Below, in pieces: positions 48,047 to 54,000 of a DNA stretch of 64,000 nucleotides. Where the stretch lies: the NCBI RefSeq assembly GCF_965638725.1, contig NC_134962.1:1867501-1931500 (forward strand), in the 5' to 3' direction. Under the pieces are notes generated by a model, which was not told the DNA's origin, did not search any database, and was given only the letters and a program-made list of their open reading frames with translations. The translations under genes were made by a program, and so were the position numbers. Source of the stretch: Aptenodytes patagonicus (taxonomy: Eukaryota > Chordata > Aves > Sphenisciformes > Spheniscidae). Position 1 is the stretch's first letter. Each line of letters starts with the position of its first letter.

Positions 48047-51000
48047 GTAGGGGCCGCGGCGGGCGGGCGGGCTGCGCCCCGGGCCCCGGGGACGGGCCTT
48101 CGCCTCCGCCTCCGGTCGCCTTGTGGCGGGGGAGCCCGGGGACGGGACGGGAGGGGACGGGACGGGACGGCCCTTGAGGGGGGCGGCCCTGAGCGGGGGG
48201 GGCTGGCCGGCCCGGGGCGGGGGGCTGCTGCCGTGAGGGGACGGACGGTCCCCGAGGAGGGGGACGACGACTGCCGGGAGGGGAGAGACGGCCCGGGGGG
48301 CTGCGGCTCCAGGGCCCCGCGGAGGGCGCTGGCGGCTCGTCGTGTCCCCCTCCCCCCCCGCCACCCCGGGCTGAACACCCCCCCCCCCCCCCAGGCCTCG
48401 TTCCCTCCCCCCGGGGTTCCCGTGGGCCCTGCGGGCATTTAGCAGCCGCTGCTGGGCAGAGGAGCTATTTTCGACGAGCGGGGCCCGGTGCTTCTGTCGC
48501 TTCTGGCAGATGCTCGGGGAGGAAAGGCCGCTGGAGGTTTCTCTTCCCCTCTCTGTGAAGCCCCTTCCGTCACCTTTCCCGTCACACCGCCCGGGTTTGC
48601 ACAGCGTGCTTCGCTGGCTGGCTGCTGACTCTGTCCGCCCTCTGCTCCTTGTCTGTGGCAGATATCAACCTTAACTCTCCCAACAAAGGTCTGCTGTCGG
48701 ATGCCATGACAGATGTTCCCGTGGATAGCGCGGCTTCGGCCAGGACCTCCGCGCCCGAGGGGCTGACTGTTGCCGAAGAGGAGGAGTTGAGATCCGAGCT
48801 TGCCAAGGTAACGGGGGGGCCTCGCCTTTGTCAGCGGGGGGCACCTGTGGCCTGCTGGGAAGGAACGGGCGGGAGCCACAGGAGCAGGACTTGGGTTTTT
48901 TTATGTGTTTTTTTTTTTAATTCCGCGGTGGTGTTACCTTTGGATCTCTCAGCTAATTGTTAAAACGCACAAAGCTGGCAGATACTTCAAACGCTGCAGT
49001 ATGTTGCGTGCTCTTTCCCAGAGCGACTTAATTTAGAGCTCTGAGGAAATAAGTGGCTTTTGATGCCGTGAGCTTAATCTAGGCTTTTGGCTTCATTTGA
49101 AGCGAGAAAACACTTTAGGCAAGTGGTGTGCAAACGAAACTCGTTTTTCCTTAGGAAGCTGAAACAACGGAGCGCTTAATGTGCTTTCTTTTTCTACCTT
49201 TTTGTTTTAAATATTTATTACCCCTTACAGACGGCTACTTTTGGCGCCTATATGCTTTTGGAGAGCTGAGGGTTTGTACTGTAATATCCTAAATTTTGGG
49301 CACCTTTTGGGGTTTAAAGTCCGTTTATGATTTCTGTCTGAAACGTAGCTGGAGGTAACTGCAGCTGCCCTTCTGTGGTCCCCCCTTTCATTTGAGACTC
49401 TCGCGGTGATTCTGTGACTTGCAAGTTGTAGCAAGGGAGAGCTTCGCCGCTCTGGGTGGTCACGCAGGTCTTGGTGAGCCGCAGTTAAAGTAGACGCGAA
49501 CCCTCTCTGCCTGGAAACAACTGCAGAGCACTTTGAAAATGCTGTAAGACAGACCTCTGAGGAAAAACTCTTGGCTTTAATGACATCGGAGGAGAAGAAT
49601 CATAAGAAAGAAACCTTAGTTAATACGGCTTAGCAACTGATTTTTATCTACTGTTGAAATCACAACGCTAGAAGTGAGTTCTGTTAATCTTGGTGCCATT
49701 GAATCGCCAGGACAGTGACGGGTGTGGATGTTTTCCCGATTGAAGTCTGAGCTGTGGGCCTCCCGTTCCAGCACCGTTCACGTTCAGTTGAATTGCCCTG
49801 CACGCGCCCCAAGCGCCTACCAATTCTTTATATTCGTGTAAACGAAATCTTGCGAGTTTTGAGGGAGGTAGGAAGTTGGCCTAATTTTCAGAACTTTACC
49901 GAACTGTGATTTAAGACAAACCTCTGACTCTCTCTCAGGTTGAAGAAGAAATTGGTACTCTCAGGCAAGTTCTGGCTGCTAAAGAGAGGCACTGTGGAGA
50001 GCTGAAGAGGAAGCTGGGTTTGACTCCCTTGGATGGGTTAAAGCAAAACCTGTCTAAAAGCTGGCACGATGTCCAAGTCTCCAATGCGTAAGTGTTGCCT
50101 GTGATGCACGTTTCGCGTTTAAATATAACTTCCTAGTAATTATTTCCAAGCAGCATATTCCAGGGCTCTTCCAAGTGGCTGGAGGCTTTTGCTCTGATGG
50201 GTATGTAGACTAAAAAGCACCTAAAACTATTTATTTCGTTGCTGTCGTGCGTCAGTGTCTTTATGAAAGCTCTGTTTATGCTGACATATCTGTGATCTGG
50301 ATAAATTGTTGCTGGATGCTCTTTCCCGTGATGTTAGAGATCTAGATCACCGCTTGACAGTTCAGTTTGCCCATTTCTGCCCATTCTTTGAGACGTAGGC
50401 TGCTGCTACCTTGTTCTGGACTCGGGCTCAAAGAGAAGTGCAAGAACTTTCAGAGCTCTACTGCGTAGTGTTAGTTCAGAAGCTATTTCCCGGGTCGTAT
50501 AGCTTGAATTAAAAAGCCTGCACTTCCTAGGAAAAAATTCTGTAGTATCAGCGTGTGTTACGCAGAGTCATCTTTGCCTAAAGAAGATCTGGAATTAGAC
50601 TGACTGTTCCTGAACAGGCGTTAAGGGCATGGTCACTGCAGTGCTTGACAGTGCCAAAAGGGGAGTCGAAGGGGTAAGTTTGGCCCTGCGGTTGTGCCTG
50701 GATGTAAGGGACTCTCGGTACCCACAGCGATACCGTTCGGTCTAAAAAGTCTCGTGTAACTTAACTGGAATTTAGCACTGACGGTGCTACTGCAGACCAG
50801 ATCGTTGAGCTGTTCATCTCGCTGTTTATTCTTTCCCTTTTTCCTCATCTTCCCTCCTACGTCCCTGCCCGATTTCTATTATTCCTTTGTAACTGAAATC
50901 TGTGTCATTGTCTTCTAAAAAAAAATGAATATTAAAGTTATATATTCATTAACACTTTCTGTTTCTAGTTATGTGAAAACATCTGAGAAACTTGGAGAGT

Positions 51001-54000
51001 GGAATGACAAAGTGACACAGTCTGACTTGTGAGTGCCTCGGGCTCCTCAGCAACACCTCCTTGCTCCTTGCTGCGTTCCCCGATTTGTGCTGCTACTTGT
51101 TCTCACAGGCATCGGGGGTTGATTGGGAGCTGGAGGCATGGCGAAGCAGGCCTGTTATTAGCAGCATGCCTGGCTTCCAGCTATAAGCATCCCTCAGTTG
51201 CAGAGGAGATGAGTAAACGTTACTGCTATCGTCTCTCTCATGGTCTTGCTATTGCAGAAGAAAAATTCCAATCAGTTACCAGACCACATTTGATTTAAAA
51301 AAAAAAAAAAAAGGCGAAAAAATCAACCACAGTTTCCCTTTAGCTGGTCGTTGGTAGGTTAGTCTGTTGTGATCGGATGTCTTATTAGTGAACCTCTATC
51401 TTTACTGTGAAACTGTTCCTCTTCTCATCGTCGGATGTGGTAGGAATCAGTTTGATTATTGCCTTTCTGTACGGCCACAGGGGAGAGAAGATGCCTGAGG
51501 GGCATTTACCTGTAGCTGGAAATAGGGGCTGTGCAAATGCAAATACATACATTCGCTTTTGAAAGCCGCCACGCAGTGGCTCTTCTGCATTGATGTATGT
51601 GAACCTTTTTGATGATGTCAACACTAGAAAGCCATGAGTTTTAGTCTTTGCAGTATATACGGGCAGGTGACAAGTGCGGACAAAGAACATCTGGCTACTT
51701 TTGTCTCTAGAATATATTCTTTAATTATATCAGACCTCCATTCATATTGGACATGAATCATTTTGATTCCTGCTGCATAGCTGAACGTAAGGGCGCCCTT
51801 GAATGTTTTCTGCACTGAAGAGTCTCTCCCTTCTATGCCTTGTGTTGAAGGGGATGGTTATTTAGCTAAGACGAAAACGTGGGTTGGGAGCATCCCGTCG
51901 TTAGGCAGGGTGGCACGGATCTAGTTGGGGGGAGTTACACTTGGGGGTGACGTGAACTGCCCATGATATGTCACCTCCTCTGAGCGCTTCTGCGTGTTGT
52001 CTGAGCTGGTAGCAGACACGCTCTGTAGTACTTGTATTTGTTCTGTACCTCCAGTGTTAATTCTCACGGCCCCTAAGGTGCTGCTTTGTATGTAGAGAAA
52101 CATGATTTCTAAAGATTAGAAAATGAAATTAAGTTTAACAGTTTGTCCAGGTCATGCTATATTGGTAAAATACAGCTTTGGGTGTGGCAGTCAGATTTTT
52201 CTGGCCTTGAGCTCAGTTCACTGCTCTGTGCTTTTAATACATAGCCGCCACGCAGCATGTAGGAAGGGAGCAGATGATGCAAAGTCTTTCAATTCCTGAC
52301 ACCTTCTAAACTGCAGGCTTTGTTTCTTTGTGCACAGTGTTTGAACGCGCTTAAATAAGAAGGAAACTGGGGCTTAGGTGTCTCCCCGCCTCTGGAACAG
52401 CAGCTCTTTTCCTTCTGGCTGTAACAGAGGAGGGGGAAGCTATTGTCAGAGAAATAAAGGCTATGATACTGTAAGTGTAAAGAGACACTAATAATGTGCA
52501 AAGTGTCAAAAGAAGCATCTGTCATGAATCTTGGCACTGTGTCTAACCTCCATTGTGTTTGTAGATATCTTTCAGCCAGCAGCACACTGGAGGACTGGAA
52601 TGAAAAATTAACTCAATCAGAAGCGTGAGTGTCTTAACCTTCAGCGTTAACAAATGTTTTCATGACAGTCTGCTGCCACTAATGTTCTGTGCCCCTGCTT
52701 ACAGTCCTTTGCTTTGACTAGATCTATTTAAACATTTCTCTTTTCTAGCTTTCACTTTTTTAACCCAATAAATGCCTCTTCTGGGAGAGGGAGCTTTTCC
52801 TCAGGTCAGTATTTGAATGATTTCATGGTGGTCCAAGTGATATTCTTCAAATGCCTGCCTGCTCTCAGAGGAGAACTGGCTGAAGCCACCGGGTAGCTGA
52901 GACCTGTGTGACACGTGTTGTAACTTCAGCTGACAAGCTGTGGAATAGCCAGGCTGACCTCTCCTTGGTACCCTCACCATGCTCTGCAGGGAGCGGGAGC
53001 TTTTCTTTTTGCTGTGGTACCTGATGAGAACAAATAGAGTTGCGGTGTCCGAGGCAGCTGTTCTGTCATGTTGGGGCCCCAAATAGACTTGAACAGCTTA
53101 AACCTCACAGCTGTTATACTCCGATTGTTGGCTGCAAAGGTCTCTTAGCCGTGTTTGTATTAAATGCCTGAAATTAAATTCTCATCTGGACTAAATTATG
53201 GAAGCGTATTATGGAAGCTGGCCTTTGTCCTTCTCACTGCATCTTTCCCACAGTATACAGGTAGTGTCATTGTTTCCTGAACTGATTTAAACCATGGCAA
53301 GGTAGGTCTTAGATAAGCCAGCTTTTCCTGTTCTCTGGGGTGGGTATGGAATTCAGTCTTCTGAGCTGGCTTGTTATTGGCAGTGTGTGTGAATAGAAGG
53401 TTTTCTTCATAAGACGGGTGAAAGATGAGCGGAGATAAAAAGTAGGAGTATCAGAAAAAACTTTAAAGTATGCGGATTCTACTTTCAATGTTCCATGTAT
53501 GTTTTCTAGATTAAGAAGATGTAAATTGTCACGATTTCACTTGCTAAATAGGATGACCTTGGGTTTTATGCTTGCTGACAGTGTGGCTGACTCCAGCGGT
53601 GTTTAATCAGAGTTCCTCCCTGGGTGTGCCTGCTAGAATAGAAAACTTTTCGTTATACCTGTTTCCTTGCACTTAATAAGTGCCAGAAATGTGGCGGAAG
53701 CGTGCTTTTGTGAGCACTTAAGGCCTGAATAGCAGTGGCACGCTAGTTTTCCTGCTTGCTTTGGCACTAGACAGAGTGACAATTCACGCTAGCAAGGTAG
53801 ATGCTGATGAAAACGGAGAGGTGAAGGGGATTGAAAAGCAAGATTTGAGCAACGTTTCGGAAAACAAAATGGAATTTCTACTTCCTTTGTCTAAAGCTCA
53901 GTAAATGCGAAGAGTCAAGTTCAAGAAAGCCAAGGATGAGGTTTTATTCTTATGTCTTGGGTTTGTTAAGCAAATGCATCCTCTTTCCTGTTGTTTGAGC

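Follow-up and report, generated by a model that had tools for sequence, protein, structure and literature searches.

A stretch of 64,000 nucleotides (nt) from the genome of Aptenodytes patagonicus (NC_134962.1, positions 1,867,501 to 1,931,500 of the forward strand; hereafter the window) contains a gene which we read as TPD52L2, encoding TPD54, and within this gene two adjacent exons, 4 and 5, are of identical length and encode peptides that resemble one another. The locus raises the question of whether these exons are copies of one ancestral coding sequence, where that sequence came from, and how the gene may use two such modules. The evidence described below indicates that exons 4 and 5 are the products of an ancient tandem duplication, and suggests, with less certainty, that both were copied from the beginning of exon 6 and serve as optional cassettes.

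A profile search with the spliced product matched the TPD52 family (Pfam PF04201) well above the cut-off of 25 bits whichever of the two exons was included, the scores being 147.9 bits for the form with neither, 149.7 with exon 4, 145.8 with exon 5 and 152.7 with both. The assignment to TPD52L2 rather than to a paralogue reflects that the gene is distinct from two family genes of the same genome and that, of the three, it alone shows the module exons. The exons that concern us are the following, all in window coordinates.

49939..50087, + strand: TPD52L2 exon 3, 149 nt, encoding the coiled-coil end and the beginning of the D52 motif, with a phase-2 end (..AAT GC/gtaagt)
50969..51028, + strand: exon 4, candidate cassette, 60 nt, phase 2-2, 19-residue peptide, with the place and length of human insert 2
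52565..52624, + strand: exon 5, second candidate cassette, 60 nt, phase 2-2, 19-residue peptide, paralogue of exon 4
56770..56871, + strand: exon 6, 102 nt, phase 2-2, 33 residues, from whose first 60 nt exons 4 and 5 probably derive

The introns between exons 3, 4, 5 and 6 are 881, 1536 and 4145 nt long, and exons 4 and 5 are each bordered by AG upstream and GTGAGT downstream. The original prediction had placed two exons of exactly 60 nt and phase 2-2 at these coordinates, and the DNA agreed with it in every respect, including splice borders and peptides.

Likeness of exons 4 and 5 and selection on exon 5

Comparison of the two 19-residue peptides resulted in 9 identities (47%) and 5 positive substitutions, precisely the likeness that had been claimed for them, with Tyr1, Ser5, Leu8, Trp11, Asn12, Lys14, Thr16, Gln17 and Ser18 common to both. 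Their BLOSUM62 score of 56 was reached by none of 200,000 permutations, and the best exon 4-type score in random introns (first-order Markov sequences of similar size, read in the sense frames whether or not splice sites were present) had a median of 16 and a maximum of 38 over 300 runs. Chance resemblance was ruled out by these permutations and random introns. A scan of the 64-kilobase (kb) window for the exon-4 peptide in all six frames revealed no third module, and the best unrelated peptide match scored at most 28 with either exon as query. In being adjacent, equal in length and phase, homologous in coding sequence and old, exons 4 and 5 are like the tandemly duplicated exons that have been described elsewhere (PMC9741552, PMC9013439).

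Among 19 codons, the two exons have the same base at the first position in 13, at the second in 14 and at the third in 6, such that 13 of the 19 codons differ at the third position, in keeping with the earlier statement that most of them do. The first two positions taken together thus agree in 27 of 38 cases and the third in 6 of 19, a contrast with a Fisher p of 0.009. Because this contrast could stem from constraint on exon 4 alone, we simulated an unconstrained exon 5 next to an exon 4 changing at silent sites only, for seven divergence times and a total of 28,000 runs, under a Jukes-Cantor model with the exon-4 sequence as ancestor and indels excluded. None of the 28,000 runs ended with an open frame, third-position identity of 6 or fewer and a score of at least 56 all at once, and neutral decay of exon 5 since the duplication was rejected on this basis. 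These results show that the exon 5 protein was under selection for long after the duplication; very recent disuse would leave no mark. Taken together, the exclusion of chance, the codon-position bias and the rejection of neutral decay make an old tandem exon duplication with a maintained frame the best-fitting reading, as had been proposed, and the conclusion that exons 4 and 5 represent an ancient tandem duplicate pair of TPD52L2 coding exons holds as judged from their sequences.

Exon 6 and the other family genes

The exon 4 and exon 5 peptides were slid ungapped along exon 3 and exon 6 of three family members, with 65 offsets each. The best offset was the exact start of exon 6, where the D52 motif lies, in all six comparisons, which are not independent of one another. 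At this position exon 4 scored 24, 26 and 29 (next best offsets 9, 7 and 5) and exon 5 scored 15, 17 and 19 (next best 13, 10 and 13), and permutations with summed scores as good numbered 11 of 200,000 for exon 4 and 444 of 200,000 for exon 5. Additionally, the form without modules filled positions 17-98 of the Pfam TPD52 profile gap-free, and in the forms with modules the best profile stretch ran from exon 3 straight into a module (17-79, 17-81 and 17-82) and was accompanied by a second stretch, in the manner of a repeat.

The modules share both register and phase with the D52 motif that opens exon 6; Tyr1, Leu8 and Lys14 are common to exons 4, 5 and 6, and Lys-Thr-x-Glu is common to exon 6 and exon 4. 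In contrast, exon 6 is 102 nt long and runs into the ALPS region, whereas the modules stop at 60 nt and have Trp11. Since both peptides align best on the exon 6 start, exons 4 and 5 probably descend from its 5' 60 nt. We consider it quite likely that the opening 60 nt of exon 6 were copied into the preceding intron, with exon 4 remaining the closer copy and exon 5 having drifted further, and exons 4 and 5 and the start of exon 6 are probably a three-member set. In the simplest history, the 5' part of exon 6 would first have been copied into the intron before it, followed by a second copy.

With the protein lacking both modules as query, six exon matches were obtained in three genes of the same genome, located on C14 (the gene with the twin exons), C3 and C2. 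We take the gene on C3 to be TPD52L1 and that on C2 to be TPD52, names that we assign tentatively, with the help of the chromosome places in a review table. No modules were seen in the homologous introns of these two genes, from exon 3 to exon 6, when ungapped 19-residue matches and exons of the form AG-60 nt-GT were scanned on the sense strand, together with 9.6 kb upstream on C3. The best intron peptide scores outside exon 6 were 25 on C3, at a place without AG/GT borders, and 16 on C2, and no more than two AG-60-GT frames had a positive score (9 and 1), with the score-1 frame lying inside exon 6. Between the paralogues, identity is 60-65% for exon 3 and 71-74% for exon 6. Judged by residue identity, exons 4 and 5 have diverged no less than the paralogues have; the pair is given no date, because it comprises only 19 residues and rates are unequal.

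Beyond the family genes, an exon-5 query matched itself alone at E <= 10 across the 1.35-gigabase assembly (618 contigs; 1 candidate scored), and a query of exon 4 plus exon 6 matched exon 4 alone at E <= 0.001 (3 candidates scored); these genome searches exclude near-identical copies only, because the exon-5 query missed even exon 4. The pattern W-N-[DE]-K-x-T-Q-S-[DE] had no match in a genome-contig and a viral-contig collection, as expected given that both are without animal genomes. A search of solved structures gave three hits, all of them at chance level (E 0.075 to 0.72).

Splicing, possible function and competing explanations

Because each exon is 60 nt long, all four combinations of exons 4 and 5 (neither, either or both) stay in frame, in agreement with the expectation that four isoforms would do so. 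The junction residues as read from the DNA are Ala at 3-4, 3-5, 3-6 and 5-6, Leu at 4-5 and Phe at 4-6. Splice sites were ranked with a rough matrix, and among the 487 AG and 466 GT scored the exon 4 acceptor ranked 17th and the exon 4 donor 12th. When the exon 5 scores were used as thresholds, four open in-phase candidate exons were found between exons 3 and 6, two of them being exons 4 and 5. Branch-point-like yTnAy sites lie 17-21 nt upstream of the exon 4 and exon 5 acceptors, and intron 4 contains none within its first 70 nt.

Branch-point crowding, U12/U2 mismatch and frameshift are among the mechanisms of mutual exclusion named in PMC5740500. Here, intron 4 spans 1536 nt, the donors (GTAAGT, GTGAGT and GTGAGT) are all U2-type, and double inclusion adds 60 + 60 nt, which would lead neither to a frameshift nor to nonsense-mediated decay. 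The absence of these three mechanisms therefore makes independent inclusion likelier than strict exclusion. From these features it seems reasonably probable that splicing treats exons 4 and 5 as in-frame cassettes, included independently or in a coordinated manner, and not as strictly mutually exclusive exons.

In position and length, 20 residues that follow the coiled coil and precede the D52/ALPS region, both modules correspond to insert 2 of human TPD54, which is described as a single 20-residue insert at residues 106-125 of the 206-residue canonical form (PMC12896813); the claim that the human form contains one module fits this description. Insert 2 is likewise encoded by 60 nt and optional by splicing (PMC12896813, PMC2941758). 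These papers mention a single insert of this type in human, whereas in this gene a second, diverged copy lies 1.5 kb downstream. The human 60-bp TPD52L2 cassette exon was validated by reverse-transcription quantitative polymerase chain reaction and was about two-fold lower in rhabdomyosarcoma, and isoforms without insert 2 exist (PMC2941758). TPD52L2 splicing is also reported as altered in glioblastoma, with the exon left unnamed in that account (PMC2410136).

As to function, human TPD54 residues 83-155 were reported to bind liposomes directly and residues 1-82 not to do so (PMC8298100), and TPD54 is said to interact more strongly with forms that contain insert 2, the function of which is called unclear in a 2026 review (PMC12896813). 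The position of insert 2 (106-125) falls within the liposome-binding segment. Presumably the human insert is of the exon-4 type. Both modules keep Tyr1, Val/Leu2, Leu8, Trp11 and Val/Leu15, and their hydrophobic moments are aligned with one another and with that of the exon 6 start (-15 degrees for exon 4, -31 for exon 5 and -27 for exon 6), the exon 4 moment being unusual for its composition (p 0.03). Each module could, although our confidence in this falls short of even, form an amphipathic helical segment that alters the binding of vesicles or D52 partners, such that splicing would tune affinity.

These elements can be joined into one account, in which duplication of the exon 6 start would have yielded in-frame cassettes in the upstream intron, splicing would place zero, one (of either type) or two modules of 20 residues in the segment that separates the coiled coil from the membrane-binding region, and the number and type of modules would tune the affinity for vesicles or partner D52 proteins. 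This combination of an ancient duplicate pair, an exon 6 origin, cassette use and binding-tuning modules is, in our estimation, more probable than not as a whole.

Several results weigh against it. Exon 5 is known from the sequence of one genome, and with the rough matrix its splice sites score below those of exon 4, the acceptor coming 41st of 487 AG and the donor 25th of 466 GT. The hydrophobic moment of the exon 5 peptide is ordinary for such a composition (p 0.08), and in the comparison with exon 6 its best offset leads the next one by a narrow 2, 7 and 6 points. The match of exon 5 to exon 6 alone is modest, with 4 of 19 identities and 2,036 of 200,000 permutations as good. In addition, the intron sequences flanking exons 4, 5 and 6 showed no significant similarity to one another, equally good matches being obtained in 156, 15, 140 and 126 of 200 shuffles; the duplication unit is therefore invisible outside the exons, and it is because of this that the origin from exon 6 is argued from coding sequence alone. 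The likeness of the homologous exons 4 and 5 to exon 6 might then reflect convergence on a Tyr-x-Lys-Thr-x-Glu-x-Leu amphipathic pattern by modules that came from elsewhere, a doubtful explanation that gains something from the fact that few residues beyond Tyr1, Leu8 and Lys14 are common to all three and that exon 5 and exon 6 agree at merely 4 to 5 of 19 residues, but one which has to contend with the exact coincidence of register and splice phase, with the six best offsets out of six (not independent) and with the scarcity of equally good permutations (11 and 444 of 200,000). The weaker splice sites of exon 5, along with the description of a single such insert in human (PMC12896813), would also suit a relic, that is, a former coding cassette which is now rarely or never spliced in. 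We regard this as improbable, given that the AG, GT, branch-point-like site, frame and length of exon 5 are all intact and that unconstrained decay was rejected, even if too recent a disuse would escape that test.

Strict mutual exclusion of exons 4 and 5 deserves consideration as well, since mutual exclusion is frequent among tandem duplicated exons (PMC9013439) and a stem formed by introns 3 and 4 could loop out exon 4 and thereby join exon 3 to exon 5. The two arms, which we list as a weak lead, are the following.

50291..50311, + strand: possible stem, 5' arm, pairing across exon 4
52136..52156, + strand: possible stem, 3' arm, pairing across exon 4

The stem comprises 21 pairs (15 Watson-Crick and 6 G-U), a length matched by none of 30 shuffles and by 3 of 400 Markov nulls, thus exceeding the other 397, and by none of eight control segment pairs, which gave 13-17 pairs each; the extended duplex reached -36.5 kcal/mol versus a null minimum of -31.0 among 500 nulls. 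It is nevertheless the best of three intron pairs in a single genome, the other two pairs gave stems that did not go beyond the nulls, and the longest run of Watson-Crick pairs in the search, 10 bp, is ordinary, having been reached by 143 of 200 nulls. Moreover, skipping of exon 4 through such a stem would not alone prevent double inclusion, and the length of intron 4, the U2-type donors and the maintained frame leave no place for the three mechanisms considered above (PMC5740500). Human insert 2 can be omitted altogether (PMC2941758), and therefore a rule of one and only one fails there; in this respect the TPD52L2 modules differ from other tandemly duplicated exons in that they look additive rather than like alternatives for a required domain segment. 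Strict exclusion is thus, in our judgment, unlikely, and we retain cassette use of exons 4 and 5 as the reading of choice.

Surroundings of the gene and meaning of the pair

Further downstream in the same gene, a 27-nt phase 2-2 exon at 60882-60908 (+) encodes AHPFSHSF, constitutes a further optional in-frame exon and resembles the short serine-rich exon termed neural in a review. At about 61300-61345 (+), with approximate borders, a 16-residue open stretch followed by a stop in the intron frame resembles the 14-3-3-binding exon (ins3) of the D52 family. On the 5' side, positions 47764-47808 hold a tandem repeat of 2.4 copies of a 19-nt unit with TGACGTCA, which is like a cAMP response element (CRE), in a GC-rich stretch 5' of TPD52L2 exon 2; this repeat may mark a promoter with repeated CREB sites. 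GC content is mostly 0.5-0.7 across 22001-50000 versus 0.37-0.47 on both sides. Upstream and on the opposite strand, an open frame at 4153-5190 (-) encodes a BTB/POZ domain (Pfam PF00651, E 2.4e-27), and we take the gene in question to be probably ZBTB46, likewise a neighbor of human TPD52L2. A scan of the window with Rfam returned 0 families.

Tandem exon duplication is a known kind of gene evolution, and the second TPD52L2 copy is apparently unreported. Three surveys of tandem duplicated or mutually exclusive exons make no mention of TPD52 in their main texts, and a second insert-2-like TPD52L2 exon was not found in the openly licensed PMC literature; automatic gene annotation may well list it. 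For annotators, four in-frame forms are to be expected, and reads may be mis-assigned between exons 4 and 5.

For the D52 family, the residues kept in both exons are those of interest for membrane or partner binding. A tentative further thought is that TPD52L2 may be a small helical-repeat protein in the making, in which the D52 motif would have been copied twice as optional exons and splicing would set both the number of repeats (0, 1 or 2) and their type, the second type being selected in this lineage and absent or undescribed in human. With its second diverged module and its probable origin in the D52 motif, the gene described here offers a natural comparison for insert 2, whose function the 2026 review describes as unclear (PMC12896813).

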